A DNA stretch of 64,000 nt from Paragorgia papillata (taxonomy: Eukaryota > Cnidaria > Anthozoa > Scleralcyonacea > Coralliidae): contig JAWNZC010000003.1 in assembly GCA_035771165.1 (NCBI GenBank), forward strand, positions 383,501-447,500, given 5' to 3'. Below the pieces are notes generated by a model. It made no database searches and had not been told where the DNA came from. It saw nothing but the letters and a program-made list of their open reading frames with translations. Made by a program: the position numbers and the translations under genes. Positions 26,776 through 45,841 of the stretch are shown piece after piece (within the stretch, counting starts at the first letter, position 1; each line of letters begins with the position of its first letter).

Positions 26776-27692
26776 GCAAAATACTCTTCAAGAGTAGGAG
26801 GATGACAGCCAAAAAATTCTGAACCTTGGTTTCCGTAGAGACACGTCAGAGCATTCTTTAGAATAGCACAAACAATGTACATCTTTCCAACGCTACTCAG
26901 GCCGATTTTTAAATTCTTCTTAAAGTCGACAAACTTGAAATAATTGACAACATAGCCAAACAGTCATTCGACGGACACTCTAACAGAACTCATCGATGCA
27001 TTGAACGCATTCATTTCGGGAGTTAAAGCTGCATTCCGAAATGGTGCTTGCAAGTGGACGCGAAGAGGATAGGCGGGATCTCCATAGACACAAAGTGCGT
27101 GGCCATTTGGGAAAAAGGCAAAAGCTTCCAAATTGATAAGAAGATTGGAGTCGGCAAGCATCCCGGCGTCGTGTTTTCTTCCCTCTGAAAGACACAGTGC
27201 AATTGCATAAAATAGTAAACTTAACATTTAACTGCAGTGCGTATGATGTGAAATTATCCTTACCGACTGGGCCAAACATATTTGCAATAAGACCATTTGG
27301 GAGAGCAAGGGATTGGAATTTAATAGCGTGTACGCTTGTGACCATTGTATAATAATCTTTGGTTTCTCCCTGGTCGTCAAGTGGGTCGCACAGTTCCTTC
27401 GATAAAACCGAAACAATTATCCAGTGCAGCCCCTTTCTTCGTAATCGCATTCACGTATTCTTGCATAGATCTTGGATTGAGGAAATCATCATTCCATTGA
27501 AGAATTCGATGCCCATGTGTGTCGTAAACAAAGTCTAAAACGTCGTTTGTTACTACCATGCAGAGAACTGGTATAGGACGACCAAATCGAGGAACCATGT
27601 CCGCGTACCGACATGGATAAGCAAGTCTCTTTAACAGCATGCAGAGCCCTTCCATGCCTTCAGCTACACTTCCTTGTGGGCACCTGAACCTA
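26776..27692 (-). pseudogene. Harbinger transposase, C-terminal part
   Basis: Minus strand. The nuclease domain shows RFRCPQGSVAEGMEGLCMLL, DFVYDTHGH, KGAALDNCFGF, then IEGTVRP where family members have a catalytic Asp (D to E change). It continues with HAIKFQSLALPNG, an intron of about 80 bp after FGPVG (near 27262-27186), HDAGMLADS, YGDPAYP (second Asp) and SVRVSVE (catalytic Glu). Breaks: a TGA soon after TVRPT, a frameshift before HAIKF and a TGA right after the Glu codon. The domain starts abruptly at 27692, the edge of element X; the N-terminal part is at 45842-46076. With the first catalytic residue changed and several breaks, the transposase is inactive. Confidence 0.8.
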
Positions 27693-27957
27693 CAATCCTG
27701 GTAAAAAATCACTCGGACACTTTGCCTTAAATGACATCTGAAATCAAATTTCCTTCGGAAAATCATTCCCCCCGCTCCCCCCGCTCCCCCCATGCAATGT
27801 TGATAAAAAAATTGCACTGAACATACGTTGCATTTAATCTTCTAACCAACATTGAACGGGGGGGGGGTGGGGGCAATGTTATTTGAACATAATCTTAGGA
27901 ATTGATGCGCTTAAGTTCGTCCTACGCGACTGTCCGAGTGAATTTTGGCCAGGATTG
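27693..27957. repeat. left palindromic unit L of element X
   Basis: 265 bp. The outer 27 bp are inverted repeats (CAATCCTGGTAAAAAATCAC against GTGAATTTTGGCCAGGATTG). The inner CCCCCCATGCAATGTTGAT is answered by CCAACATTGAACGGGGGG. It reads as two inverted half-units of about 130 bp. Confidence 0.85.
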
Positions 27958-28179
27958 TCTGAAAATAACTGCGTCAATGAATAACACCATTTCCCTCCCT
28001 GTTGCTGGGTTTATTCGGCTAAAACTTCATTAATTTATATAAAAACCGTTACTCCTTATAATTCCGTTAAAAAAATTAAAATAGACAAAAAAAACTAATA
28101 ATTTGCGTATTCCTTCATAATTACATCATACATTAATTGTTGTCGTCACGAACTTAACGACTAATTTGAAGAGCAGGAA

Positions 28180-28760
28180 ATGACAAGGAAAGCCAGCTCG
28201 GAGAAAAGAGCTTTAGCGCTTCTTTACAGAAATCACATAAAACTAAGTTATCGAGAAGTCGCTAGAAAATGTGGTATTTCTAAATCGACAGCACATGCGA
28301 TATGTTCTTTGAAAGTCAAAAAATCTGGACACGTTAACAAAGCTGGTCGACCAAAATTTTCTGTGAGGGATTTAATTGCAGAATGCTCCTTGGACATACT
28401 GTCGGTTCCTCGAAGGACTATTTCAAGATATTTAAACCAAAATGGATTCAAATTAAGACAAGCAAGGAAAAAGGGGCTTTTAAATGACAAAGACAAGCGC
28501 CTTAGGTGTTACGCGCGGAAAATGAGGAAGATTTTACGTGTTCAATCTGATTTTTTTACTAATGAAGTCGGCTTTTACTTGGACGCTGTTTCTTTTATTC
28601 ACAAACACGATCCGCGGAGAGCCGCTATTCAGCCGAAATCTCGAGTTTGGCGAACAAAAGGGGAAGGACTGAGCATTACAACAAAAGGAAGCAAGAACTT
28701 ACCCGGCGGAAAGCGCCTTCATGTACTCGTAGCGGTAGCGTATAAGAAGGGAGTTATCCT
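28180..28760 (+). CDS. Tc1/mariner-like transposase of element X, N-terminal part
   Basis: ATG at 28180. Residues 15-50 form a helix-turn-helix (LSYREVARKCGISKSTAHAI) and a second basic domain follows to about residue 110. The first catalytic Asp lies in EVGFYLDAVSFIHK near residue 131. KSRVWRTKGEGLSITTKGSK and GGKRLHVLVAVAYKKGVIL follow, up to the insertion point of Q at 28760. The continuation is at 42781-43198. Coding lengths of 581 and 418 bp sum to 999 bp, an unbroken 332-codon frame plus stop, so Q is the only visible lesion. That suggests Q inserted into a recently intact gene. Confidence 0.88.
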
Positions 28761-28881
28761 CAGCCTAGAAATAGGCTTTTCCGTGCGCAAACCGCTGGAA
28801 GCCACTGTGGGCGCTGGCCAAATTAAATTCGCTTCGTGACGTCACGGAAGCTGATGCGCTGGAAAAGCCTAGTAGATTTCC
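28761..28881. repeat. left terminal hairpin of element Q
   Basis: CAGCCTAGAAA is followed by TAGGCTTTTCC (28772-28782), which pairs with GGAAAAGCCTA (28861-28871). GTAGATTTCC (28872-28881) follows and is also present at the right end. A CRE-like GTGACGTCAC palindrome lies at 28836-28845, about 45 bp before the helicase start codon, and may be part of its promoter. Confidence 0.75.
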
Positions 28882-28890
28882 AAATCCAAG

Positions 28891-31800
28891 ATGGCGGCTT
28901 ATGATGAGTGTAATGTTTCGGTCAGTGAGTATCAGGTCAGTGAGCAGTATACACTTTTTCCGTGTCCGCATCCTGATTGTGTTGAATCCCCAAGGTGGTA
29001 TAAGAGGCTTGAACAACATTACTCTTGTGCTCATGAGGGAGAGGAATGTAGTACAGTAGATGCTAAAAAAGAACGCTGGAGGAGACGAGGTGAAAGAATG
29101 CGACAAAAAGTCATTCTCTCCAATGGTGATGTGGTGAGTAAATTATTACTAATATTGATGAAATCATGCAAATATGTTTATTGAGATTCTATCATATTTT
29201 TTTGTCTAAGTAGCAGCTTTTCCTATATATGCTCATAATTATAAAACACAATTCGTATTTAGCATGGAATTTAATACTTGGGCAATGTTTCTTTCTATTA
29301 AACAGCACTGTTACTAGTATTTATTTATGATTGAAAGAATGCAATTTATATGCAAGTTATCATAGCCAGCCGATAGTTTGAAAAAGTATAAAACAAAACA
29401 TACACCGAAAATAAACATCTTGTAAAACCCAAGATGTGAGTCAAAAACAAGAGAGGATGTTGAAATGGTTATAAAGATCATCTTTCATAATTTTCTATGA
29501 ACAATTTGAGCCATTAACTTGTAAAAATCATCCATCTGTTGTAGAATACCATTCCCGGTTTTTTACATATTCTGATTTGTGCTTTATATGTTTACTAGGA
29601 AAAGGTTTTTTGATCAAACAATATAATAATACAACTGTGAGATAGATATTGATACAGTAAATAGTTTGAGTCAAAAAATTTCGATTTGGAGTAAAATTGC
29701 ATTCTGTTTGTCATCAGTGTATGGTATAACTTACTGTATAACTCAGAAGGTGTTGTACAGTAGCTTACCAAAATTAGAAAAAATACAAACATTAGGCATT
29801 TTTCATTATTTTTGCTGCTCTAATTCAGTTGCAATATACACTATAATTTTAATCACAACCATGTTATCAGACACTATTTTTGTGAACTTTGTTGATTTAC
29901 TAAATTTCCTCTATTAAGCCCCTAAGTTAGAACATGGTGTTTTTTACTATCTACTTTACCTCTAACAGAAAATCGGTTACAGATGGCTTTGGCTTTCAGT
30001 TTCTCTTACTCTGAATTGGAAAATTAAATAAGCCTCCTCTTCATGGGCTGAAATTAATCAGTGATGGATTTACCAGGGGGTGCAGGGGGGTGCGCACCCC
30101 CTGGCCTTGGCCAAAGACTAGGTATTAGGTATCATAGCTATCATATGATTCATAGATATATGATTCATATATTAGCTATCATATGATTCATAGGTGTTAA
30201 TAGGTATAAAACAAAATTTTTCTGGTGGGCTTCACTCCCTACCCCCCAGCCCCACCACCAGCTCGGCCCCTGGACCCTGCTGGGGGCTGTGTCCCCAGAC
30301 CCTTGCTGTAGCTCCCTCAGCGACACTCCACCCTGCCTCGGTCGCACCCCACACCTGATCTCACTTCGCTCGCTCAGCACCCCCGCTACCAGATCAAGCT
30401 GGATCCATCACTGAAATTAATAAACCCCCAGGTGCTTAATAGAGGAAATATGGTAAATGGAATGATCAACATTTGTGATAAAAAACACCATGGATGAAAA
30501 AACTTCTAATTTTGGTCCTTCAGACCCTTCATACTCAGCAAATCTCATACATTTTATTTTTTATTAAAGACTGGTGGTGAAATATATCATGTGAAATATT
30601 GTGGACAGGATATTGAAATCAAAGACACTCAATCTGAAAGTGCTGCTTTAAAAGCTGCATGTGTCTTGCTGGAGCAAGGGCAGTTGAACAAGTTCTCTGA
30701 ACAACCATACAAACAAATAATTGTGAAAGGAGCCCATAGGACAGTGGTGTATGAGGTTTGGAAAGAATTCAGTGAGCAACAGAAAAAAGAGTTTCCTCAA
30801 ATTCAAATGAAGAGAACAACTGTCAACATGAGCTGGTTTGATAACAATACTGGATTTACCGATACTGCTACTTGTATAAGCATGGATGTCCCCTTACCTG
30901 ATGAAATAGATCCTGATGTAGACAGTGTTATTGATCAATTTTCATCGGTATCCCTTACCTCTGAATCTCAGATAGTCGCCACTGAAATAGCTTTGAAACA
31001 GCTGCCAACACCTGTAACGCAAGCAGAACAGCTGTTCCCACTAATGAAAGCAGTCTTTGGATATTCATCATTCCAGTTGAAACAACAAGAAGCTATCAAC
31101 TCTTGCCTAAACAAAAATAATACATTTGTTGTTATGCCTACTGGAGGAGGGAAGTCTATGGTTTATCTTTTACTAGCCCTGGCACAACCTGGTTTAACAG
31201 TTATTATTTCACCACCAAGGTCGCTAATTGAAGATCAAATTTCTAGATGTGTTTCTGTTGGTATCAATTCAGCATTTATCTTGGGTGAAATGACTGATTC
31301 AGAAAGACAGAAAGTATATTCTGGGCTTAAGCAACCACATTGTCCATTTAAAGTGTTGTATACCACTCCTGAAACAATTACAACTGACCAAGTGTTGCAT
31401 GATATTGTACTCTCTTTGTATTCTGTTGGAGCCATTCAGCAGTTCGTAATTGATGAGGCTCATTGTGTTAGCCAATGGGGTCATGACTTCAGACCTTCAT
31501 CTTAAATTGCTTCGCATTTACTACCCCAAAACACCAGTTTTAATGCTAACTGCGACAGCAACAGTCGGAGTTATCAGTGAGGTGGTAGATGTTCTTGGAT
31601 TAACTGATGTAGTGGTCATTACATCTGATTTCGATAGACCTAACCTGTCATATTCAGTACAGAACAAATCAAGCAGCACAATAGCTGAGATTGTTAATAC
31701 AGTTAAACCATTAACGTGTTCACTTGTGTATTGTTCCACTCGCTTTGATTGTGAAGAACTTTCTGCAAAATTGGAGTCACATGGAGTTCTGTCCAAGGCG

Positions 31801-32613
31801 TACCATGGTGCAATGTCTAAGCAGTTACGTTCTTCTATTCAGAGTCAGTGGATGACTGGTCATCTACAATTATTATGTTGCACAAGTGCATTTGGTATGG
31901 GTGTGGACAAACCAAATGTACGTGCTGTTATTCATTACTCACTTCCTGCATCTATGGAAGATTACTACCAGCAAACTGGTCGTGGTGGCCGTGATGGTTT
32001 ATCCTGCAAATGCATAATGTATTTCAATGCAAGTGATCAGACATGTCATGTGCAGCGTATATTTACTAGATGCAATATGAACAGCAAAGCCTTAATTGGA
32101 AAACTTAAGAACTTTCAAATGTTTATGAACTATTGCCTCAATAAACATATATGCAGAAAAGAAGTCCTTTTGAGCTATTTTGGACAGGCTCTGTCCAAAC
32201 ATTGTGGGGATCATTGTGACATTTGCGAAACCCCATGTGACGTGCATGAATTAGACATTACTAATTGTGCTTTAACAATTGGGAACTGCATCCAGAAGCT
32301 TAAGAATGATTTCAATGGAAAGAAGTTGACAGTTAAACAGTTGGCAAATGTTATAACTGGAAAGAAAACTGCAGAAATCATAAAGAAGAAGTACAACGAG
32401 TTACCTGGATATGGTTGCTTCATGGAAACATCAGAGCAAGGAGAACTCTTGTTGCGCAGACTGGTAGTTGAAGATTTTCTTCGAGAAGTTCCCCATGATT
32501 CAAAGCAAACAAATGCATTGTATGTTGATCTGGGCTCCAATTTTATGACAATCTTGAATAACGAAAGCAGAATAATATTTTTCAAGGTCGATAAAATGCG
32601 TAAGTTTTCCTAA
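28891..32613 (+). pseudogene. C2H2 zinc-finger / RecQ-family helicase gene, one frameshift
   Basis: Exon 1 is 28891-29133 (donor GTGAGTA); exon 2 starts at 30570 (acceptor TTATTAAAG) and joins in frame. The N-terminus has a C2H2-like finger (CPHPDC, then H and H in LEQHYSCAH). Exon 2 has SF2 helicase motifs of the RecQ type: MPTGGGKSMVYL, IDEAHCVSQWGHDFRPS, LTATAT, VYCSTRFDCEEL, GMGVDKPNVRAVIHY and QQTGRGGRDG. A four-Cys zinc-binding region (CLNKHIC to CGDHCDIC) and a winged-helix-like tail follow. A 1-2 bp indel at about 31497, right after DFRPS, shifts the frame; all later motifs are in the new frame from about 31500. The end at 32613 may be the true stop or may run past a GTAAGT donor at 32599. 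Likely role: unwinding during replication or transposition of Q (inference). Confidence 0.85.
30059..30413. mobile_element. hAT MITE in the helicase intron
   Basis: Ends CAGTGATGGAT and ATCCATCACTG, flanked by the perfect 8-bp duplication AAATTAAT (30051-30058 and 30414-30421). 355 bp, non-coding. It entered the intron of the Q helicase, so it is younger than Q's gene structure. Confidence 0.92.
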
Positions 32614-33057
32614 GTTATTTTAATTTGAAGTATTTTTTCAAAGAAACTCAAATTAACATGGATTGTAGTATTATTATGCAATAGCATGGTTTTGAGTGCA
32701 ATTTGGGAAAACCATGCACACATGAGTTTTTTCAAAGACTTTGAAAATGACACAAGTCAGCAAGGACAAGTGATATTTGAAGTTTTGAAAAACTCACAAT
32801 TGCATGTTGTTTTTTTCCAAATTGCACTACTGAGACTAAACTGTAGGAACAGTGATTCATGTATTATTTAAGGTTAAAGCACTCGCATGAGTGTGTTATC
32901 AAGATTTACATGCAAAAGTTCACAAACAAGGAATGAGAAATTAAATACTGAATGAGGCGTAAAGAGTGCTTTAAAACATTTAATATTCGCATGCTATTCT
33001 TCACACGAGTCTCCTACCTTTCCCAAATTTCTACATTGACAGTTCATTCACGCAGAT

Positions 33058-36000
33058 TCAGTGGTCCTGTTCATTTGTATTTTGGGTCAGATTTACAGTC
33101 GCCTGTACTGGAAATTGTCTAGAAATCATTTCTTTAAAATTTTCTTCAATCTTCTTTTGCCCTCTTTCTTCAACTTTCAAGCATTCCTTTGGGATGGCAA
33201 TAAGTTCGCCCAGATCCTTTTTGCCATGTGGATATAACTTTACTTCTTTTCTTTGTGTATTTGTCAACCATTCATTCTGTATTGCAAACCAGGCTACTTT
33301 AATCCTATCTGGTGTTGGATCAGGCACTGACGATTTGCCTCCTGTGCTTGTCTCGCAGCTCCTTTGGTAAACGGATTTGACATGCTCTAAAAGTTCAATG
33401 TTCATACACATTTTTTCCAGCATTTCAAGTGTGGTTTGCTTCCGTCCATACAGCTTAACTGGCTTCACCACAAATGTCTCCATGTACTCGTCAATTGCAA
33501 AGTTATGTCCTCGTTTCCCTTTCGCATTGACGCTGCAATTACGGCGGAACATTTCACGGTAAGCCAGAGGCCAAAGTGTAGTGAAATTTAGTATGTGCAC
33601 TAAACTTTCATTCTTGTAGTTCTTTTTGTTCAGTGCTGCAAATATAGGCAACATCTCAATCCAACAGGCCTCTCTTGCTTTTCCATTACCCATTCTGACT
33701 GCTTCGTGAAATTTGAACAAAAGAGGTCCAAACTTAGTGAGAAACAAGTAAAAGTACTCAAACGTGCTGTCTGTCTTGTTGTATTCCAACCAATCCTTGA
33801 AACATTTGAGCAAGAATTTGCTGTGATCTTTGTCTTCCGATGTTGTCTTGTATTGTTCAAGTACAGTATCTGGGGGAAAGTTATCTGATGACTGAAATTC
33901 CTTAACACCAGCTATCATAACTCCCCAGTAGAAATCTGTTATGGCATTAAAGTTTCTTTGAAAATTGCCTTCCTTGAAAATGTCAACAAAAGAATTTGGT
34001 GTTACTTTCACTCTGTCTAGCATTTGTCTTGCAACATGATAAAATCCACCAGGTCCCATAATTCTGGCGATGCACTGCATAACGTAACCTTGTGCATGGA
34101 AATCACCTGGTGTCTCTGTAAAAGCACCAAATTCATCAGGGGACCTATTTCGAACCCCCCTAATAGTCATAGTTGTTTTGACATCTCCGACAGTTATGAC
34201 CTGTTCTCTTGCATGTTTCGCTGTCGTTGCGGATTCTGTTTGCGATGAAGTGTTAACTTGTATTTCCATTTGTTCAGTACTTGGGTCTGTCTCCTTGACG
34301 CTGTGTTCTTCTAGTAACTGAAAAACCAATTCCTTCCTGGCATCTTTTTCTGTTCGATTAAGGGTTAAAATATCACAAATTGTCTTGTTTCCTATGGATT
34401 TAGCAAACTGTATTGGTGCTTGTATGTTTCCAGAAAATGTTCCATCGCATCTTGCACCGTACCTATGGGAAGATAAATTGAATAAAATTAATATGTATTA
34501 AATCATGCCATGGCAAATTCTAACATGGTTGTAGTAAATCTATTAGTTTAGATTGTTACATTTCTTGCTTAACTCTATTTTTGGTCAATCCTGGTTTTCA
34601 ATTGGTTGCTAAAATGTTGCGAATTGTTGCAAGCTTTTGCTAAAACAGAACTGAGGAAATACCATTCAATATTTGCTTGCAAAAAACATTGCAATCAGTC
34701 AACTACCAAATGCAATTTAATAATGGAGGAAAATATATACTAACGATCTAACCACAATTGTACAGGATTACATACTGGAGTAGTATTTTGACCATGTCAA
34801 CACTATTTGCATTTATTGCGATCATTAAAGGTGTTATTCCACAGCCTTCTGGGGTGTTCACTGAAGCTCCTGCGAGTAGAAGAGCCTCTACTAGCTTTTT
34901 GTTTCCACTTTCAACAGCCAATTGAATGATGTTGCGTTCATACCCATCTATCTGCCAAATCCACTCAGAACTGTGCAATTTGATTGCCGAATATGCATCA
35001 CGAAGATTCTTATCTTGGACTAATGATTTCATTGTGTCCAAAAGCTTTGACATTTTTGACGAAATTTGCTTCATTTTGCCTTTGAAGCTTGAGGACGAAC
35101 TTTCAGATTGTATAATTGTGTTCTCCTGATAATCACTATCTTCATCTTCATGAAATGAACGAGGTGTCTCGAATTGCTTTCTCAAGGTTACCATTTCTTT
35201 CTCGTGATTCTCCATTTCCTTGTAGAAAATATATCTTTCCCTTGCTGCTTTGATTTCAAATTTCTTTTCATCCTTATTGAATACAACATATTCTACTTTC
35301 TTTGAACTTTGAATGTTCAAATCTCTTGCAAATTCTTTAAGTACATTTGCAGTGCCACATGTTTGTACTTCGTCTTCCAAAGATAAAGGTAAGATCATAA
35401 CTTTTGTCTTCATGCCTGCATTTTCAGGATATTCCGGTTTAATAGGAGGCACAGATATTTTGATGTTATTCTCAGGTTCCTCATATTCTTCCTTCTTCAG
35501 ATAGTCCAAAATATCTTTTTCAGTCATATTAGCAAGTTGTCTCCTGTTTTTATTTAACGAAATACCCACTTTTAGACCTTCAAGCAAAATTCTGTCTGTA
35601 CCTTCAATGTGTATGTTTAACAACTCCTTCTGGTTTTCTGTGAAAAATAAGTTAAAAAAGATAAAATTAATAAAATATAAGCTGGATACAATGAATGATT
35701 TGTGCTACGTGTACAGGATATACAAAGACCATTATTATATATGAATAGCATCCTGGTTCCAGATATTGTGTCCAGATAATTAACCCATTAACGGGCAAGG
35801 GCGCACTTTCACATTTTATGACGATTTTATTCAACAGATGGGACAGAGCGCTTATATACGCGCCCTGGTGTGGGGTGCTGGGATGCGCGCTTGCTTGTTA
35901 ACACTTTGAGGCCTGGACCTCTCCCTGGGCTGAATAAAATCGTCTGGCGTTAGCCAGAATAAACCGTACTGTAAAGACTCGTCCTCAGGCTTCAAAGTGT

Positions 36001-37023
36001 TAATGGTTAAAATCAACTCGAGCAGACTGGGAAGAGTAATTAAGAGGGAGAGAGAAAAGTGGGAGAGAGAGGTTTATACCGGTATGGGGAAAAACAAATA
36101 CGGAACCAGTATATGTACAGTGTCATAAAGGACAAAGGACTGAGGGGCTAATCATCCTTACTTGCAGCCAGCGGCTGAATTGCGAAGGACGCAGATCAAC
36201 GTGGCCGTGTCGAGGCATATCAAAGGCGCTCCAGGCTGCCGCCATACGACACAGTTCAGACCATGGATCACAGCTAAGATGTTAGGTGTTGATTTTATGG
36301 AGGGAGGAAAACCGGAGAACCCGGCGAAAAACCCTCGGAGCACAGGAGAGACCAACTAACTCCACTCACATGAGTCACGAAGCTCGGGAACGGGGCTATT
36401 CCCAGACGGTCACCCATCCAAGTACTAACCCCGTGTAACCGGGCTTAACTATTGGTGAGAGGCAGCGCCTTAACAGCACTCGCCACCTGTGCTCCCACAC
36501 AATAATTCTGTCATAATTTTGTCGTTTCTTACCTAGCAGAACATCTTCAATTTTGACGTCTTTAAGTAACTTCTGGGGGTCAGACGCAGTTTTGCTGTCT
36601 TCAAACAAATGTTTCACCTCGTCTATTCGAGGCTTTATGACTACTTTGCCGGTGAAATTCCGCATGATGGGAACTGATCTTCCTTTAAGTCTTGCATGCC
36701 GAGCTCTTCCTTTGTGAATATTTATGTTGTCATATGCAAGAATGATTGGGCAGTTGTCAGGAAATGATGTAGATATTACATCTCTGTACTTTTCTCCTCT
36801 TTTATTCAAAAATCTACGACTGCAATAGAAAGCAGAGGTGTTTTTTTTTAGAATTACATAATTACGAAATACTAGTTTTCCATCTGTTAAAATGATTGTA
36901 AGAATGAGTGTAAAATTGTTATGTCATATTTTTGTATAAAATAAATGGCCAGCTCTTACGAGTGTTGTTATTAGTTGACTATATATTGTTTGTACGAGTA
37001 AAAAAGTGGAACGAAAATGAAAA

Positions 37024-37062
<39 letters not shown>

Positions 37063-39187
37063 TATATATAGCATAACATATAGGTTGATTAGTGATTAAG
37101 TGTACCCGAAAGCTGAGGCTTGAGGGACATTTAATCACTAATAAACCAATATGTTATGCTATCACTCAGCCTAGACACTAGACACTTGAGAAAACAAACC
37201 AGTTACGCAATGAAAGTTTACCTTTCGTTTAGGGCGCTGCCGCTACAAGCGGGTTCAGCGAACCTATACTTCGAGATAGGCGTTTACTTGTCTCTACTTC
37301 TCGATTGGGGGCGCTACCAGTGTACTCTACTCGAAATGTTTTAGGCAAGGTCCCGTTGCATTGGGCAATGATATTGCCTATATATTGCAAATTCACGGGA
37401 ATCGTACCTTGTGCATAAACATTAGGTAGCATCGGGTTATTTCGATGTTAAATGTGCGTGTGGAAACAATGAAAACCGAGGTGGCCGAGGTGGTTTATAA
37501 CTTTTTTCAGTTGCCTGATGATCGCTAACGCGTGAAACTCGGAGTAGCAACGTTCATTTTTATATATATATATATATATATATTTATGAACGCCTCGGAT
37601 TCTTTTGTTCTCCGAGGGAATGTAAACCTCGTATTTCCCCATCGCTCATGCAACAGGGAAATTTTTCCTTTGTCTTCTAATTTTCCCGTGCATTTTTCCC
37701 GTTGATGAGGGAAAAATTAGAAGACAAAGAAATCCTTTGTCTTCTTCTAAATTTCCCGCTTGCATGTATTTTCCCTCATTCCCTCAAGCACGGGAAAATT
37801 AGACGCAACTTCTCTGATCAACCGTGTAAATTTCCTGTCGGTAAGATTCTCAAAGTTTTCCTCGGCGATCATAATATTACAAACTAATACCATGACTTTT
37901 CGGGAAATTAGCGATTAAATTTCCCCTTTGCCTCGGGAAGATTTGTAAAGTCCTCGGGTCTGCGGCCCTCGGACTTTCACAAACCTTCCCTCGGCTGCGG
38001 GAAATTTAATCGCTATTTTCCCTCAAGTCATGTTATTACTTATAAATATATAGTTGGATAATAAATAACTTATTAGACAGTTTAGTGGACAGTACAGCTG
38101 TACAATTTTACTCATCATTTGTAATTTTATTATATGCATGACTAAATTACTGTATCTGATTGGTTGAGAGGAGTACAATTATTTCTTATTTCAATAATTG
38201 TATAACGATTTAATTTTGTTATCATTCCAAATTGCACTGGCCTAACGGCTCGTACAATTTTGGCACAATTTTCAAATATCACTCGTAGTGTAAATACTTA
38301 ATTGAACTTGCTATGATATGATTACCTATACTATAACTCTACAGACTCACAAATACAGCCAGATTAGCCGTACTGTACAATACTGCACAAACTGTCCAAT
38401 AAGGTATATGTACTGCATTACAATGATTACTTACTAGAAATCATAACCCTTGCATAGACCAAATGGTTCTAATGCCTGGATTACAGCTTTTCCAGCACCA
38501 TGAGAAATCAGCAGGATTCCAAACAGTGTTGAGAATTCAGTGCTTGTCCTTTGGCTTTTTATGTCATCCAAGGCCAGTATCATTTGAAGTGCAACCTTAA
38601 ATTTGTATGACTGGGTCTTTTTACCTTTGTTGTACTTTGACCATTTACCAATTGCAAGTGTTTCAATTATGTCTGTCAATAAAGGGCAGCAATCGCGTAC
38701 ATTTATAGCAAACGTGTCAAAGGTAGTTTCTCCAAAAATAGAATCCAAATCTTCACTTTTCGTCATGTCAACAACTCCAACTTTACAAATATTCTTAAAT
38801 TCAGTAAGCTCAGCTTCCAGGGTTGTTTTATCAAATCCTTGGTTGGAATTACTATCATCATGTTGGTCAGTTTTATCATCATCTTCTTCAACTAAGTTAC
38901 CAATTATTCCCAAGTCATCACTATCAGTTTCGTTACTGCTAGGGAATAATGTCCTTTTGATTCCTCTTGTTTCTCCGCTGCATGATGGCCTTTCAGTTGA
39001 GAACTTTAATTTCTGCTTTAACTCATCATTTTCTCTAATGAGGTGTGAAAAATTTTCTAGGACAGTTTCTCGGATTGTTTCAAGGGCACTTGCACTCAAA
39101 TCTGGTTGATTCTTTGTTAGAGTAGATTTTACATTATACCATAACGATTCACTGGTAGTTATTTTAGCAATATTCACAAACAGAGTT
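33058..39187 (-). CDS. multi-exon ankyrin-repeat / DUF6589-like protein of element Q
   Basis: Four exons can be joined in frame on the minus strand: 39187-38435 (acceptor ACTTTAG, donor GTAAGT), 36819-36533 (acceptor TTGCAG, donor GTAAGA), 35637-about 34764 (acceptor TTCACAG) and 34462-33058 (acceptor CCCATAG), stop at 33058. The 5' exon with the start codon was not found. Order: an acidic coiled N-terminal part; ILAYDNINIHKGRARHAR; a charged linker; two to three ankyrin-like repeats (GNKKLVEALLLAGASVN and following); then a C-terminal domain with VGDVKTTMTI, ETPGDFHAQGY, RMGNGKAREACW and CSVNAKGKRGHN that resembles DUF6589. DUF6589 has no established activity. The spaced acidic residues in YDN, VGD and PGDFH would fit an RNase H-like nuclease, making this the best transposase candidate for Q (inference). 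About 1,100 residues, no frame break seen. Confidence 0.65.
35780..36010. mobile_element. TTAA-ended MITE
   Basis: Ends TTAACCCATTAAC and GTGTTAATGGTTAA, with a partly palindromic interior around the AATAAAATCGTCTGGCGTTAG block. Lies in the intron between the second and third recognised exons of the DUF6589-like gene. Related TTAACCCA-ended pieces are at 40992-41235. Confidence 0.5.
36137..36495 (-). mobile_element. SINE with 5S-rRNA-derived promoter segment
   Basis: On the minus strand the head (36495 downward, GGGAGCACAGGTGGCGAGTG) is followed by AGTTAAGCCCGG, GGTTAGTACTTGG and ATGGGTGACCG. These match the internal promoter region of animal 5S rRNA (A box, intermediate element, C box). A conserved body with CTCCGAGGGTTTTTCGCCGG and TTCTCCGGTTTTCCTCCC follows. 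It is inside an intron of the Q DUF6589-like gene. It is not a functional 5S gene: the 5' part of 5S is absent and SINE body follows. Confidence 0.75.
37021..37162. repeat. (TA)n tract and adjoining hairpin
   Basis: A TA run at about 37027-37070 is followed by a palindrome: ATAGCATAACATAT at 37068 is answered by ATATGTTATGCTAT ending at 37162, with AGTGATTAA and TTAATCACT inside. A second TA run lies at 37560-37582. Confidence 0.8.
37167..37181 (+). other. internal copy of the Q terminal sequence
   Basis: CAGCCTAGACACTAG here is identical to the outermost 15 bases of Q's right end read inward. No matching partner end or 9-bp duplication was found nearby. It may be the remains of a related element nested in Q. 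Confidence 0.4.
37891..38032. repeat. 142-bp inverted repeat (MITE-like)
   Basis: CATGACTTTTCGGGAAATTA is answered by TTTTCCCTCAAGTCATG, and GCGATTAAATTTCCC by GGGAAATTTAATCGC; the centre is GC-rich (TCGGGTCTGCGGCCCTCGGA). Preceded at 37650-37800 by related hairpins built on TTCTAATTTTCCCG and GGGAAAATTAGA. Confidence 0.7.
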
Positions 39188-39403
39188 CTAAAGTTAGTCA
39201 AAGAAAGTAATTGTAATTATAAATATCACTTGAGAGACGTGTGAACAGAAAGATACTAAGCAATTTAATGTACGTTGACCAGTTTACAAAATCATAAAAG
39301 AAATGGCATGAATATGTATTATAATAATTATGTTGTGTAAATATTATAATTATAAAATTGATTAAAACAGTCAGCCCGTCATCGAAAGATTGCCTTATGC
39401 GTT

Positions 39404-39545
39404 ACACTTAATGGGACTTTTTTACATCATGATTTTGTTCTCACCTCCAAACCTTCATTTGGCATTTACGGAACGTATTGTACCAAAGCAAGGCTTGGTG
39501 GTGAGATCAAAAGCGTGACGTAAAAATGCAAAAACCCCATGAATT
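39404..39545. repeat. MITE-like inverted repeat
   Basis: TTTTTTACATCATGATTTTG and TTCTCACCTCCAA on the left are answered on the other strand by TTTTTACGTCACGCTTTTG and TCTCACCACCAA. Outer ends read AATGGGA and CCCCATGAATT. No target duplication resolved. Confidence 0.5.
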
Positions 39546-39796
39546 GTTTTAAAATGTGTAGAAACCATTCTATAAAATAATAATAAAGTGCATTGCAGTG
39601 TAGTGCAATACAATGCCGTGTAGTATAGAGTAATATGATAATATATTTAAAAAATCATTATTATTCATGAAGTAAAAACAAAAGGAATCATGCGATCATA
39701 CAAGTGGATTATAAATTTACAATAGATCTAATTAGTATTCTTTAGATAAAGATATATGAACAGTCCATAGGCGCTCATTTTTTAAGCTGTTCAATA

Positions 39797-39973
39797 GACT
39801 TGCAGCACCTGTTTTATCAGGTCTATAACCAGTACTTCATGTATGCCTAAAGCTGAGTACTTCATGTAAGCCTGACCCCAACATAAATGACCAACCCCAA
39901 TCTAAGATGTGCCGGGACATAATAATAAGCATACATGAAGGTTCTCTAGAACCTGATAAAACACTGCTGCTCA
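39797..39973. repeat. MITE-like inverted repeat
   Basis: GCAGCACCTGTTTTATCAGG on the left is answered by CCTGATAAAACACTGCTGC on the right. The interior has two direct GAGTACTTCATGTA-type repeats. Confidence 0.55.
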
Positions 39974-40114
39974 TTTTTTAAAATTATTTGACAAGAAACA
40001 TAATATAAATTTATAATATACATGAATTATATTATGTAATTATTGTTATAGTGTGTAACAGCATGATAAAACTAAAAGTCATGATATCACAATTATTTAC
40101 TATATTATAATTAT

Positions 40115-40594
40115 CAGTGGCGTGGTGGCAGGGGGGCCCAAAAGCCCCCCCCCCCAGCTGGGGTTGCAGAAGGGGTGCCAAAACTAGCAAGGGCACTAAA
40201 ACGTAACAAAATAACTAGCTAGGTCTTCAATGGGGGGATATAAAGATCTGTAATCTTTTGTGTTTTCCATGAAGTTTTTTAATCTTCAGAATTCTGTAAA
40301 ATCTCACTCCAAAATGCAGGAAATGGCATATCAGAGACTCTAGATTTCAAAATTTTACATGGGTGCATGCCCCCGGACCCTAGCGGTTTCGCGCTACTTC
40401 GCCGCTTGCAATTGGCGTCGTCTTTGAGAGAACCCGTTGTTTGTTGTAATATTATATATTGCTACTTCAGTTATTTTAAAACAAAAAATGTGATCATTTA
40501 CAGTCAAATACAGTAATGTCTTTTTTTTGGGGGGGGGGGGGGGTGCCAAAGCTAATCTGGCCACCACAGCCTGAAACTTGCCACCACGCCACTG
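40115..40594. mobile_element. hAT MITE with 8-bp target duplication
   Basis: Ends CAGTGGCGTGGTGGCA and TGCCACCACGCCACTG, flanked by the perfect duplication ATAATTAT (40107-40114 and 40595-40602). C- and G-runs lie near the ends. Non-coding, 480 bp. Confidence 0.92.
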
Positions 40595-40632
40595 ATAATT
40601 ATTGATACATCTATTGTTACATCATATTATAA

Positions 40633-42529
40633 TTAAAGATACATCCTTTGTCTCCTATCGATTGCATCTTTTCTGCTTCCAATTTGACTCGTCTTCTTAT
40701 CAATTTTGCCAAGTTTCTGTACCACATCGAATGCCTGCATCTTGGTAACCTTATGACCAACTGCTTGTTCAAGCTCGTATACAACTTCTGTCTGTGCCAA
40801 ACAACTGTCCTCCAAAAATACAAATTTCTTTTTTACCGCTTCCAACAGATTTCCTGTGGGAGAGAGAAAAAAAATATTGACATTTCAAATGTTGATAATT
40901 ACTTTATTTTTTTTAAATTTAAAAAATAATTAAACAGATTTAAGTAATATGATATATACATACAAACAATAGAATATAACAGTTGCATTCTTTAACCCAT
41001 GGCCATTGACAGGCAAGGGGTTTCTTTCCAAACAATAAAATTGTATGGCATTACACGGAGTAACTAACAAAGGGGTCAGATTAGCCATCAATGGGCTAAA
41101 AAGTATAACTTAGGCAGATAGGTTTGTTAACCCATTGTTTGCAGAGGGTTTTGTCTTTGATGAGTATATCTGCCACGAGACAGAGTAAGATAACAAAGGG
41201 GCTAATTTTGGCAGGTTTAGCTGTCAATTGGTTAATTACTGAAAACAAAGACATTTATTTATTTATTGTTTTAAATGTTTTAAATCAAAATTGATGAATT
41301 GTTTGTAGATACACAGAGTGAACAAATCCTAAGTAAAAAGCCAACCATATGTATATCTATAGTCTATGCCTTTTGGTGTAGTTCACTTTATATACCCCTG
41401 TAAACTGATTATAATAATGAAATAAACTATTAACTTGTTGTTTTTGTTGTGCCATTATCATAAATATGAGTAAGCTGGTACCAAAAATGCTGTACACCCC
41501 ATTGTACAGAATGTGTCTGCTGGGTATGTACATAATAAACTACTTGTCATGCAACCAAAAGAGGAGACAGGTTACCCCATTCCCACCCAAAATTGTTTGT
41601 TGCCATAGACCTTGGTGTATTTTCTATAAATCTAAAACCAAATATGCTTGATGTAATTTGTGAACTGCATTGTGTAGTGTGGATGCCTACTACCTAGTAA
41701 TCCCTCATAAATAACCCTTATATTGTAGCCCCAAACTTAAAAGAGCTTTAAGAGTTCATGCCATCCATTACCTGAGAATGATCTGATCTTTTTCTTTTTC
41801 TTTGATCTTCTAAAACTTGGACTTGGAGTAAAGCTTGGCCTCCTTTTTCCAGAAACATGTTTTCCTGTGATATTAAATGTCAATGATTTAAAACAATAAA
41901 TTATTGCCAGTATAAACATTGCCATTTATAAGAAAATTATAAGAAAGCATACTCCTATTTCACACTCATTCATGCTTGCAGAGTTTGAACCTGCACATAT
42001 GCCATCTGGGCAAGCAACTTAATACACTGAGTATGAATGAAATAGTGAAACAGAGAAACAATATTTATAAAGACAAAAATATATAACTCAGGCTTACCTG
42101 AAGGGCTTGCATACATCCGTTTATCGATGGCGATTCCATCTCTATCAATAGACGAATCACCTTCTAAAAGTATAAAAAGGATATAATACTCTTTTAAGTT
42201 TTTGTTAATACAACTTTATATACAAGTGACAACATTCAACATCGATTTAAAGTTACATATTTATGTTTCATAGGAAATGACTCCGCGCTCTGCCTCTGAA
42301 TTCATTGCCTTGAAATATGGAAATATGAAACCTTTCAAGCGTAAAACAATCTTGACAAATAGCACGGACAAATAGCATTACCATAACAATATATATATGT
42401 CATCACAAATTACAACATAAATTTATAATGTAAGCAATGTCTTGCAGTCTTGGCGGACAATTATTCAACATATTAAAATACAGATTATAGTTGTTTTACA
42501 ATATATACACTCACGAACTTACCTTCCAT
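40633..42529 (-). CDS. small basic four-exon protein of element Q
   Basis: Exons 42529-42523 (ATG GAA G), 42163-42098, 41864-41772 and 40853-40633, each bounded by consensus AG acceptors and GT donors (GTAAGT, GTAAGC, GTAATG). All three introns are in phase 1. Total coding length is 387 bp, which is 128 residues plus stop. An acidic start (MEEGDSSIDRDG) is followed by a Ser/Pro/Arg/Lys stretch with KKKKK, a likely nuclear localisation signal, then a helical C-terminal half (GNLLEAVKKKF, QTEVVYELEQAVGHKV). No family recognised. The first exon starts about 240 bp from Q's right end, so the gene reads inward from that end. It may also be the 5' part of the longer gene downstream if the last exon is spliced alternatively. 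Confidence 0.55.
40992..41235. repeat. two TTAACCCA-ended palindromic pieces
   Basis: TTTAACCCATGGCCATTGAC at 40992 pairs with GCCATCAATGGGCTAAA ending near 41100. TTAACCCATTGTTTGC at 41129 pairs with GCTGTCAATTGGTTAA ending at 41235. Same end type as the MITE at 35780. Confidence 0.5.
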
Positions 42530-42643
42530 GGCTTTGAAAATTAATTCAGGTCGCAAAAAATCAACGCAGAATCGCCAACACGCGCCAACAGCTGTCAGAT
42601 TCAAGTGGGGCAGTTTTGGGGCAGTTTTGGCCACTTTCGATTG

Positions 42644-42771
42644 GGAAATCTACTAGGCCTTCTATATTTCGTCCCGCCCCCTTTTTAGTTCCCAGGCTCC
42701 CGTAGTATAAATAAGCTCCGAATTCTCCGGAAAATCCGAAAATAAAAATAGAAGGCCTAGTGTCTAGGCTG
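42644..42771. repeat. right terminal hairpin of element Q
   Basis: Read inward from 42771: CAGCCTAGACAC, then TAGGCCTTCTAT (42759-42748), which pairs with ATAGAAGGCCTA (minus strand, 42665-42654), then GTAGATTTCC as at the left end. Stem sequences differ from the left hairpin but each is self-complementary. Just outside lies a tandem TGGGGCAGTTTT repeat (about 42606-42630). Confidence 0.75.
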
Positions 42772-42780
42772 AGTTATCCT

Positions 42781-43198
42781 TAATGAAGTTTACGAGAAAA
42801 TGGACGGTGATTTTTTTGCGGACTTTAAGACTCATTTTAATTTATGTTTTGGTAAAGCGGGCCCTAAGGCTTACGGAAAGAGATTATTTGTTATGGATAA
42901 TGACCCTTGTCAGACAAGTAAAAAAGCTTTAACAGAAATAGAGTGCGAGTTTCACCGCATTCCTGCTCGTTCACCAGATCTAAATCCCATTGAGAATGTT
43001 TTTCATTTAGTAAAGAAATGTCTGGAGAAAGAGGCAATAGATTGTAATATAACTAAAGAATCATTTGAGACATTTAAAAAGAGAGTGCTACGGTCTTTGG
43101 AGAGTTTTGATGTAAGAATGATGGACCGCACAATTGAAAGTATGCCTAACCGAATAAAAGGAATTATAAATTCAAAAGGGATAAGAATTAAGTATTGA
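42781..43198 (+). CDS. Tc1/mariner-like transposase of element X, C-terminal part
   Basis: Continues the frame interrupted at 28760: the codon split by Q is completed after the second AGTTATCCT copy and reads NEVYEKMDGDFF, matching AEVYEKMNAEFF in element Z. The second catalytic Asp is in LFVMDNDPCQTSK and the Glu in RSPDLNPIENVF. I count 31 residues between this Asp and the Glu, against 34 in Tc1. The C-terminal helical tail ends at the TGA at 43196. Without its N-terminal part this piece cannot act, but precise loss of Q would restore the gene. Confidence 0.88.
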
Positions 43199-43410
43199 AA
43201 ATAATTAAGTATTATGTCATATACTTTATACCAAACATTTATTGTATTTCACACGAATTAATGTAAATGTAAATAAATTTTATTTTACAAACCAGTATGT
43301 GGACATTTATTGTGCATTTATTTATTATGAACTATTATATTACAACGGCAATATATCGTTTCCGCTTATGCAGCTTTGGTTACACGGCCCTTATCAACTT
43401 CTCGGTATCT

Positions 43411-43815
43411 CACGGTAAACATACCCATTCATATGTCACTTTGCGAATTTAGAGAGGGAAAATTGTGTTCATTCCTATCGTATTTTATGCGAAATTAATA
43501 TATCTTTCGTCCCAAACGGTAAACGAGTAGTAATTGTAAGAAACAAAGAAAACGCAACGGTAAACATGTACAGCTTTCATAAAAGAAAAATGACTGATCA
43601 ACTCTTAATATTCTAAAAATGCGATTTTACAATGTTTACCGTGGCCATTCTCAATATGCACATTTATTCACACTACGTTTCCTCTTCATTGAATAAGTTG
43701 GAGTATATGAACAATTTGAAAATGAAAACACGGTATATAAACACTTCTTTCATGCTCTAATAGTTCAATGAAGAGGGAAATTTCGCATGTTTACCGTGCA
43801 CGCCTGTTTACCGTG
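43411..43815. promoter_or_regulatory. six copies of an 11-mer (CACGGTAAACA), possible Rep-binding iterons
   Basis: Forward copies at 43411, 43515 and 43556; reverse copies (TGTTTACCGTG) at 43633, 43788 and 43805. The core GGTAAAC is invariant. They lie in the 725-bp spacer between the 3' ends of the transposase and Rep genes of X. CCTCTTCATTGAA (about 43681) and TTCAATGAAGAGG (about 43764) form an inverted repeat in the same spacer. Function as Rep sites is inference. Confidence 0.5.
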
Positions 43816-43922
43816 CGATGCACAACGTGACGTGCATTACGTCACATAACGATATAATATGTGGAAATGTCTATTTAGTTGTAAGGAGTTCTCTGAATGT
43901 TCATAACAAATGTCATAAATAT

Positions 43923-45296
43923 TTACAAAGGAAGTAATCTAGTAAAGCACTTTGCGCAGGGTGGGATATGCTGTTGAGGATCTGGTGGAATTTGGTGATT
44001 GAAGGAAATAATCTTCCATCTCACCACCATCATCTCCGTCTCCCGATCGTCCACCACGCCATTCTTGATGAAAATTAAAGGTCGCTTAGTTGTACAGAAG
44101 ATTGGGGTGTCTTGGCAATGGGTTTTCGATGCAGGGAGGTGGACAATTTCTCCTTCTAGCATAAGCAACAAATTGTGCCACGGTATCACCTGAGGGCTGC
44201 AACGAAAATCATTGAGAAATTTGCATTCTGTATTCCAACCCACGCGAAAGTGCTGGAAGCTAGATTGCAGAATGTTTCGTAAAGCAACGTCAGTGCCTTA
44301 AGCATGAAAGTCTTTCCGCAATTAGCTGGGCCAACGATCATTACGTTACGGTGTTTGCCGCGTCCTTTCGTTAGCGATTCTTTTATTGCCTGACCAAACA
44401 TGGTTACATCAACGCCGTTTTGGTGAAGAAGTTGTTTGGCAGATTCGAGCCAAAGTCCATTGCACCCTACAGCACAATCGCCTTGCGATGCGTCGTAAAG
44501 CAGGTCTATGCGGGTTTTCTTCGAGCGCGCGATCTTTTCTTTAGCTCCTTTCATCTCCCACGTCGTGTTGAGTAATTCCCCTATAATTTTAGGTGACCTG
44601 CCGAGAATGAATTGTGCAAGGTCAATTTTCCCGTGTTCTTTCTGTTCTTGTGTAAGGGCATAGAGTTCAGTGTTTGACTGAATATTTTTCTCTAAAATAA
44701 TTTCGGAAACTTCAAACGGTGTCAGACACTTCTGTTTACCTCCTTTTATTCCTTTCCGTCGCTTCTTTCCTTTTCCTTTACTTGTCGAAGCGCCTTCCTC
44801 GCTACTTTTCTTCTTTCTCTTTCCCTTGTTTTGCTTCTGGGCGCTTGCATTGCTCGTTTTAGGTGTTTTAGCATTTCGGAGATCTGGGTGTCCAATGTTC
44901 AATGAAGTAGTTGTGGTGGACATTTGAGTAGTGGACAATGACACCAAAGGTTTTCTGCAAATACCTTTATGACAGCAGCCATCTTTGCACTTTATTTACC
45001 TTGACAGCCATGTGATAATGGTGACCACCATCGCTGTGGTTCTCTAAGCTACAACACCATTGAAGAACTTTACCCGACCCTTGAGTGAAGGAATCCACCA
45101 CAGCCTTTGCAAAATCTTTTCGAAGTGGAAACGTGTGTAAATTAGCTTGACTGTAGGTGAGAAGATAAACAGTTCTTGTTGCTGAAGAAATAATGGAGTT
45201 TTCATCCACGCTTTCATTCCCACTACTCGCTTCATTCAATCCGTCTGAAGGGCTAATACTTTCTATATCACTTTCATTCATGGAAATTGACTGCAT
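43923..45296 (-). pseudogene. Rep-like protein: HUH endonuclease and SF3 helicase, degenerate
   Basis: ATG at 45296. The N-terminal part has LLTYSQA (motif I region) and HHYHMAVK (HUH motif). It is followed by an in-frame TAA near 44967 and a frameshift; the segment that should hold the catalytic Tyr (YxxK) is missing. A Lys-rich linker (44880-44740) leads to the SF3 helicase: Walker A GPANCGKT near 44330, a frameshift near 44225, Walker B FLNDF, LEGEIVHLPA, the sensor segment TPIFCTTKRP, and a C-terminal Cys pair (CAKC), ending at 43923. The layout is that of CRESS-DNA virus Reps and parvovirus NS1. It faces the transposase inside element X. Such proteins nick origins and unwind them for rolling-circle or rolling-hairpin replication (family knowledge); this copy cannot work. 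Confidence 0.78.
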
Positions 45297-45588
45297 AACT
45301 ATACATCAATAATTGAGAAGTAAGTGAAGCAACGTTTCTCCACAGGAAATGAATGGTGAAAGAGGATATTTAGTGTATCCTTTGTATAGGTTTTGCATGC
45401 GCGCACGTCTTCCGGCGTAAACATGACATCGCAAGTGATGGCAATTTTCCCTGCAGATCAGAAATATTTACAAAAATTGTACACAAGTAGTTTCTGTAAT
45501 AATTCAATTGCAATATGTACATTTCCCCCCGATTCTGATTCATTTAAACAGAGGAAAAACAGTTTTGCTTCAATTTGATATTTTCAGA

Positions 45589-45839
45589 CAATCCTGGTCA
45601 AAATCACTCGGACACTTTGCCTTAAATGACATCTGAAATCAAATTTCCTTTGGAAAATCATTCACCCCGCTCCCCCCATGCAATGTTGATAAAAAATTGC
45701 ACTGAACATACGTTACATTTCATTTTCTAACCAACATTGAACGGGAGGAGTGGGGCGATGTTATTTCAACATAATCTTAGGAATTGATGCGCTTAAGTTC
45801 GTTTTACGCGACTGTCCGAGTGAATTTTGGCCAGGATTG
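45589..45839. repeat. right palindromic unit R of element X
   Basis: 251 bp, same orientation as unit L and about 93% identical by eye. It lacks one CGCTCCCCCC block of L. Preceded on its inner side by TATTTTCAGA, the complement of the sequence just inside L. Confidence 0.85.
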
Positions 45840-45841
45840 TA

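Follow-up and report, generated by a model that had tools for sequence, protein, structure and literature searches.

A 64,000-nucleotide stretch of the Paragorgia papillata genome (the window: contig JAWNZC010000003.1, positions 383,501 to 447,500, on a 3.98-Mb contig of a 618-Mb assembly) carries at positions 27693-45839 an insertion of about 18.1 kb, element X. In X, a Tc1-type transposase gene and a gene for a replication initiator (Rep) with HUH nuclease and superfamily 3 (SF3) helicase motifs converge between two direct copies of a repeat that we call END. X itself is a decayed copy, and both of its genes are broken. Our reading, to which we give roughly two chances in three, is that X represents a long-lived two-enzyme family: Rep would make circles and concatemers, and the transposase would paste END-(INT-END)n, where INT is the internal region, into TA. 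C and L numbers are our own handles for places in the assembly.

X lies in a duplicated TA, with TA followed by CAATCC at 27691-27693 and GGATTG followed by TA at 45839-45841. CAATCC is not in excess in the window (30 seen vs 31.8 expected), and its counts were rejected as proof of the borders. The boundary is drawn instead from direct repeats of about 260 bp (27693-27957 and 45589-45839) and from two empty paralogous sites, L049 (C14) and L050 (C95). In both sites the left flank continues straight into the right flank over a single TA, with identities to the window of 97.0% (L049) and 96.3% (L050) on the left and 98.0% and 98.1% on the right; the comparison covers these two of the three other long right-flank matches, the third being C58. 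A single open frame of 133 residues passes through the insertion point in L049, and joining the window flanks without X gives a 119-residue frame that spans the junction. Because L049 and L050 have one TA and no X, and because the L049 frame is uninterrupted, the whole 18.1 kb is one TA insertion, as a first-pass annotation of the window had proposed. That annotation also held that removal of X restores a Harbinger transposase in frame. The frame does rejoin, but the Harbinger name found no confirmation: the flank frame 27380-27817 gave no Pfam match in a search that covered this frame and not the rejoined one. The parts of X are the following.

27691-27692, TA target-site duplication, left (from the letters and the empty sites L049 and L050)
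27693-27957, plus strand, left END, terminal direct repeat with its own inverted ends CAATCC..GGATTG
27795-27802 and 27847-27854, inner arms of the left END, CAATGTTG and CAACATTG
27958-27961, plus strand, TCTG inner END flank, present in 5/7 families with END flanks read (not C10-type, not C91b)
28180-28760, plus strand, N-terminal half of the transposase: HTH_23, HTH_Tnp_Tc3_2 and the first catalytic D
28752-28760, left copy of the 9-bp duplication AGTTATCCT of an unrelated insert
28761-42771, the unrelated 14,011-bp insert in the transposase gene, ends CAGCCTAGA
42772-42780, right copy of the 9-bp duplication AGTTATCCT
42781-43198, plus strand, C-terminal half of the transposase: second D and E of DD34E (frame listed from 42800)
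43923-44243, minus strand, C-terminal piece of Rep, a separate frame with no Pfam match (order as in the intact 480-residue L014 copy)
44186-44947, minus strand, SF3 helicase piece of Rep, Walker A GPANCGKT
44967-45296, minus strand, HUH nuclease piece of Rep, LLTYSQ and HHYH
45585-45588, plus strand, CAGA inner END flank, present in 6/7 families with END flanks read (not C91b)
45589-45839, plus strand, right END, nested hairpin fold (DNA z -7.7)
45681-45688 and 45732-45739, inner arms of the right END, CAATGTTG and CAACATTG
45840-45841, TA target-site duplication, right (from the letters and the empty sites)

The 14,011-bp insert that splits the transposase gene has its own ends and its own 9-bp target-site duplication, is unrelated and is not part of X, which measures about 4.1 kb once it is subtracted. 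It holds frames for a RecQ(-like) helicase, DUF6589 and ankyrin. The first-pass annotation missed it, along with the direct-repeat composite design and the arrays described below. A nested insert with its own borders is what an ordinary Tc1 element that had received a single Rep-bearing insertion would display. However, this insert contains none of the Rep frames, END lies outside both genes, and the two genes are neither always in separate elements nor joined in this copy alone, since all 17 loci from which trees were built hold the pair. This recurrence refutes chance nesting, to which we attach next to no credence.

The plus-strand gene is a DDE transposase, as originally read. Its C-terminal half matches DDE_3 of Pfam (42800-43195, 1.7e-9), its N-terminal half (28180-28836) matches HTH_23 above the cut-off and Tc3_2 just below it, and the closest solved structure in the Protein Data Bank (PDB) is Sleeping Beauty (6.3e-17). 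The catalytic residues D183, D282 and E317, with 34 residues from the second D to the E (DD34E), are present in 35/35 aligned transposases, which were hand-picked for length and spread from the 120 relatives listed. By these sequence criteria the transposase is of Tc1 type.

Both edges were read for ten insertions (the window, C80, C91a, C91b, C245, C232, C10, C420, C78 and C261), and nine of them, arrays included, lie between TA and TA; C91a (L016 4729-9021, on C91) lies between TT and TT. Array edges were taken as one insertion from the continuous matches between them, which for C420, with its match-free stretch, was assumed. C270 has TA at both edges and was excluded from the count since a single insertion is unproven there. 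Integration at TA by a Tc1-type enzyme is well supported, and the TA sites, DD34E and the excision scars presented below together argue for Tc1-type cut-and-paste. The family shares DD34E, TA duplication, inverted ends and a short excision scar with Tc1/mariner elements of the Sleeping Beauty type. In contrast to those elements, it adds a Rep gene, direct-repeat composite ends and tandem arrays between one pair of TAs.

The gene that converges on the transposase from the minus strand indeed carries the motifs first noted in it, HHYH, GPANCGKT and other SF3 motifs, in the frames 44967-45296 and 44186-44947; the HUH, SF3 and C-terminal pieces lie in separate frames in X. In an alignment of 69 of the 120 relatives listed, also hand-picked for length and spread, each HUH histidine is kept in 68/69 sequences; no sequence lacks the Lys of Walker A, the Asp of Walker B or the Tyr and Lys of the YxxK motif (69/69 each), and all six catalytic residues occur together in 67/69. 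Pfam matches of the 69 members are weak and mixed (REP_ORF2-G2P 34, Parvo_NS1 23, PPV_E1_C 22, Gemini_AL1 4), and the UniRef name of one relative, P0307, starts with "CRESS-DNA virus Rep endonuclease". Features of the Reps of circular Rep-encoding single-stranded (CRESS) DNA viruses are present, namely HUH motif II, a single-Tyr YxxK motif III (as defined in PMC6668415) and the SF3 helicase. The LTYSQ, HYH and YxxK nuclease and the SF3 helicase liken the protein to CRESS-DNA virus and parvovirus Reps, whereas the family differs from these viruses by its chromosomal insertions, by the transposase opposite Rep and by the lack of a capsid gene in the units read. As a side observation, Rep SF3 matches at C105:154199 and C469:19371 lie in frames of 2045 and 1977 residues, vs the usual 440-540, and may be fusions or captured Reps.

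The expectation that the genome would hold further copies with both genes was borne out many times over. END has matches in at least 41 places (40 of 369 candidates scored), the Rep SF3 piece has at least 150 (best 150 of 935 candidates) and the C-terminal half of the transposase at least 150 (best 150 of 1103 candidates). The layout of a family unit is END, transposase, Rep, END, with the genes converging. Both genes are open in the C80 array (L014), with 360 residues for the transposase and 480 for Rep, and a divergent single copy, L017, whose proteins are 47% (transposase) and 40% (Rep) identical to those of C80, has the same plan and 263-bp ENDs. The pair is found in many places, and the most divergent lineages that hold it share about 40-50% protein identity. 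At loci fetched for a transposase match alone, Rep adjoins in 5/5 (C261, C324, C340, C213 and C336). Of the 17 tree loci with the pair, several of which were chosen for having both matches, 15 have the genes tail to tail; the other two, C261 and C213, were read across a unit junction and fit the same register. In the C232 array, which was fetched for its ENDs, the transposase is accompanied by no more than a remnant of Rep, and in C10, C459 and C420 the parts read contain Rep without a transposase match; all four arrays retain CAATCC-type ENDs, as expected of satellites.

In three between-family pairs, synonymous sites are saturated, with nonsynonymous divergence (dN) of 0.18-0.30 for the transposase and 0.18-0.29 for Rep. 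The ratio of dN to synonymous divergence (dS) in close pairs ranges from 0.14 to 1.25, two pairs having zero synonymous change, and these pairs hold too few changes to judge. Trees of ten lineages share the groups C80+C105 and C273+C50+C77, i.e., 2/7 splits, a number reached in 187/5000 label shuffles. With C91b and C78 dropped, after the trees had revealed their conflict, the eight remaining lineages also share C261+C324+C354 (3/5 splits; 56/5000 shuffles). Given these common splits and a distance correlation reported below, the two genes seem mostly to descend together, with some module exchange or tree error. As judged from these copies, both genes are intact in some of them, have been conserved over long divergence and were inherited together in most lineages read.

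The ENDs of X, 265 and 251 bp long and 90% alike, are direct repeats that each have inverted ends, CAATCC..GGATTG, and across the family END, 250-280 bp long, is a direct repeat that has inverted ends of its own and contains a nested hairpin. Nine ENDs, drawn from seven families (the window and C80 belonging to one, C10 and C420 to another), have in common the outer inverted ends, C-rich arms and the pair CAATGTTG..CAACATTG, and when folded as DNA each of the nine beats all 60 of its shuffles. A search for the inner arms with a gapped pattern (10-40 bases between them) matched only 2/62 loci because the arms lie further apart in most ENDs. Where its position was read, END is upstream of both genes; in two copies the distances are 225 and 407 bp to the start of the transposase and 316 and 384 bp to the start or match of Rep. 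In a circle, the two genes would be in a bidirectional arrangement around END. END is a likely replication origin.

The orientation of END varies. The C420 END aligns with those of C10 and C459 at 263/268 positions as the reverse complement vs 160/252 directly, self-palindromy alone accounting for 144/255, and the next 150 bp beside it are not inverted (146/149 direct). ENDs read ahead of the internal region are in "flip" orientation in 6/6 cases in C420 and in "flop" orientation in 10/10 cases in C10 and C459, while those of C324 and C213 have one common orientation. Such flip/flop ENDs recall parvovirus hairpins, although recombination at the inverted ends could also produce them. Solo ENDs between TA and TA were found in 2/10 sampled regions, and two adjoining ENDs so placed in 1/10. 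At L059 (C419), two ENDs abut directly and overlap at GGAT/CAATCC, with TA on each outer side.

In the mechanism that we propose, the circle or array unit has the transposase and Rep genes diverging from the hairpin END and meeting tail to tail, and END would bear both termini recognized by the Tc1-like transposase. Rep would nick DNA with its HUH nuclease within or next to END, or in the CAGA/TCTG flanks, and unwind it with the SF3 helicase, thereby starting replication of the rolling-circle or hairpin type; the products would be single-END circles and head-to-tail concatemers. A circle with one END could release only that END, while a multimer alone would offer two ENDs around a unit; in this scheme, replication would therefore make the transposase substrate. 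The transposase would then excise END-(INT-END)n from the multimer and insert it at TA. We infer Rep-driven replication from the conserved catalytic residues, the tandem multimers and the hairpin END between the gene starts.

The best 150 Rep matches represent 148 distinct copies, 75 of which lie in 17 tandem clusters (copies on the same strand within 7.5 kb), and the array unit is about 4.04 kb. Counting copies free of N and covering at least 90% of the probe, we found no differences over 600 bp within C10, C459 and C420 (3, 10 and 10 comparisons) and 0-1 within C80 and C78; between C10, C459 and C420 the differences are constant, at 4, 10 and 12. Each array appears to descend from one unit, a pattern that both concatemer integration and growth in place fit.

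Junctions that lack END carry scars. They read CAGA-C(A/T)G-TCTG in six arrays (C80, C270, C232, C78, C261 and a 1385-bp array around C80) and CAGA-CATG-TCTG in C340. The scar 11-mer was seen 10 times vs about 0.17 expected (for 0.36 Mb at equal base frequencies, with overlapping stretches entering twice), and the scars in it are built from the terminal C-A and T-G of END. A short scar made of terminal bases is typical of Tc1/Sleeping Beauty excision. Filled and emptied junctions coexist in the C80 array, and the arrays C324, C261 and C232 have two unit sizes about 250-270 bp apart: spacings in C324 are 4001-4006 (9/13) or 3730-3733 (4/13), 2/5 in C261 are about 260 longer, i.e., leave room for END in a mixed array, and 3/15 in C232 are about 252 longer. 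The loss of END at junctions with Tc1-like scars indicates that END is a substrate and thus a mobile unit in its own right. As read in the assembly, the copies record insertion of END-INT-END or (END-INT)n-END at TA and loss of single ENDs with CAG, CTG or CATG scars.

The surroundings of some arrays merit description. A paralog of the C10 target site has TT instead of TA; a 647-bp inverted repeat (99%) abuts this array (L022 2563-4880), its other arm being the empty target-site paralog. The C80 array sits at a TA within a second tandem array (L013 1-4747, L015 from 5054), whose 1385-bp units include an END-like repeat, CAATCAGTGACAAAA.., and showed no match to transposase or Rep; the C80 array is thus nested in an array of its own kind. 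A further array region, C9:2043668-2077590, has transposase copies on the minus strand and then on the plus strand.

The closest described architecture, with other enzymes, is that of KolobokP (Kojima and Bao 2022, PMC9587614). KolobokP has an internal region between long terminal direct repeats (LTDRs) with short inverted ends, forms multimers (LTDR-INT)n-LTDR inside one target-site duplication as well as solo and excised LTDRs, encodes a transposase plus a second nuclease, and was reported to lose 1-5 flanking bp upon excision; its authors called the composite design unlike any other DNA transposon. The words "HUH" and "rolling" are absent from the text of that paper, and mariner is named once. 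The X family likewise has long terminal direct repeats with their own inverted ends, multimers, END excision and a second nuclease. However, KolobokP has a Kolobok transposase, TTAA targets, a His-Me finger nuclease and flank deletions of 1-5 bp, in contrast to the DD34E Tc1 enzyme, TA targets, HUH and SF3 Rep and C(A/T)G or CATG scars found here. On a His-Me finger nuclease, the longer frames of L016 (over 105 residues) are all transposase or Rep and those of L014 (120 residues or more) match these two at least in part, shorter frames lying outside the profile search.

This likeness suggests a different course, in which END-INT-END moves by cut-and-paste, unequal crossing-over between ENDs or INTs in the chromosome makes the multimers, and Rep is a nickase that provokes recombination. 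This is how PMC9587614 accounts for KolobokP, which has the same architecture together with solo repeats and multimers. Several observations weigh against our reading, some of them in favor of this one. The tandem share of 75/148 may not be peculiar to this family, and uniform arrays are also the outcome of unequal crossing-over once an insertion is in place. The internal spacings of C78, 3471-3476, leave no room for END; both internal junctions read (n = 2) carry scars, and the array is bounded by ENDs, of which the left is truncated. Such an array follows, in the KolobokP-like course, from a scarred dimer that later expanded, and it also fits recombination of a scarred circle with a copy already in place. 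Given C78, the C232 array with its Rep remnant and the Rep-only arrays C10, C459 and C420, multimers can do without an END at every junction and without having both genes in cis.

The proposed co-divergence of Rep and transposase, for its part, held only partly: besides the common splits, the distance correlation is 0.31 over 13 loci (183/5000 shuffles), untrimmed sequences give weaker values of 0.22 and 0.13 (p 0.10 and 0.29), and C91b and C78 occupy different positions in the two trees. The 13-locus set omits the near-identical C91a, C245, C336 and C340, and near-identical loci are also out of the ten-lineage set; C270 is in the untrimmed test and not in the trimmed one, and the trimmed Rep region offers no overlap for C91a. 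Finally, Rep has no convincing sequence match among solved structures in a PDB search, and no circle, nick site or transcript was observed, our basis being assembled sequence alone. The KolobokP-like course leaves two facts unexplained, the retention of a complete HUH and SF3 initiator (saturated synonymous sites, Rep dN 0.18-0.29) and the inversion of END in C420. We consider it a credible but unlikely account.

The first-pass annotation had described X as a transposon-virus hybrid that replicates by Rep and integrates with a Tc1-like enzyme. The single unit, the recurrent pair and Tc1-type integration stand, and replication by Rep is deduced as set out above, but the virus half found no support. 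Frames of at least 120 residues in L014 all match transposase or Rep at least partly (7/7), L016 has no frame above 105 residues besides these genes, and L017 has one 120-residue frame that matches neither; by frame length and gene match, with no capsid profile search, no capsid-like gene was seen in these three units. Searches at E <= 1e-3 returned 524 and 531 proteins for Rep and 439 for the transposase, the best 120 being listed each time. The matches listed include Rep relatives named from Porites evermanni, Acropora millepora, Porites harrisoni, Paramuricea clavata and Oculina patagonica and transposase relatives from Paramuricea clavata, Exaiptasia diaphana and Dendronephthya gigantea, most rows being without an organism name. 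The named species are anthozoans. Three same-source contigs above 5 kb (20394, 396782 and 7659), paired by size, occur in both listed sets, which hints at linkage of the two genes elsewhere. Among IMG/VR viral_contigs no Rep relative was confirmed, one search being sensitive to close relatives only and 21 pattern matches in another yielding none.

A CRESS genome has an ambisense gene plan around a hairpin, which the Rep motifs and the bidirectional genes of the X family resemble. This resemblance and the relatives in several named anthozoans would suit a capsid-less relative of single-stranded DNA viruses that travels in helper-virus particles and enters the genome by means of the transposase. 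Against such an origin stand the viral_contigs result and the lack of a capsid-like frame in the units read, and we judge it quite improbable.

A more elaborate form of our two-enzyme reading, which we regard as evenly poised, would make X a CRESS-like circular replicon with a Tc1 transposase in the place of the capsid gene, and so a third lifestyle intermediate between those of transposons and single-stranded DNA viruses. Its concatemers would be pasted as n-mers into TA, as ready-made arrays, with any two ENDs serving; flip and flop would be traces of hairpin replication, and the family would persist across Anthozoa with Rep-only, transposase-only and gene-less satellites. If true, a rolling-circle initiator and a cut-and-paste transposase would work together in one eukaryotic element, with tandem arrays born in one step, and the element would offer a testable route by which virus-type replicons become heritable. 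The family is also a second, separate case of composite design after KolobokP, again with a second nuclease, which suggests a general rule. The 4-kb unit with its two intact genes is small enough for direct testing.

No element carrying both a Rep and a Tc1 transposase was found in a partial literature search by title and start of abstract, with no preprints and no Repbase, in keeping with the first-pass annotation, which knew of no such element. Helitrons and Replitrons move by their HUH enzyme, and in Helitrons a Rep is fused to a Pif1-type SF1 helicase and there is no target-site duplication. As eukaryotic transposons with an HUH endonuclease they resemble the X family (for the Replitron, see PMC10741241), which differs in that its integration bears Tc1 marks, its helicase is of SF3 type and TA is duplicated. 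The SF3-type matches and the TA duplication led us to reject a Helitron assignment. Teratorn, the nearest fusion of a transposon and a virus-type replicon that we encountered, unites piggyBac with a whole herpesvirus genome in about 180 kb (PMC10175614); it too joins a cut-and-paste transposon to a virus-type replication system, whereas the X family has about 4 kb and one virus-type gene. The coral CMITE arrays (PMC2872659) were likewise rejected as the same thing, being of TTAA/piggyBac type with other ends.

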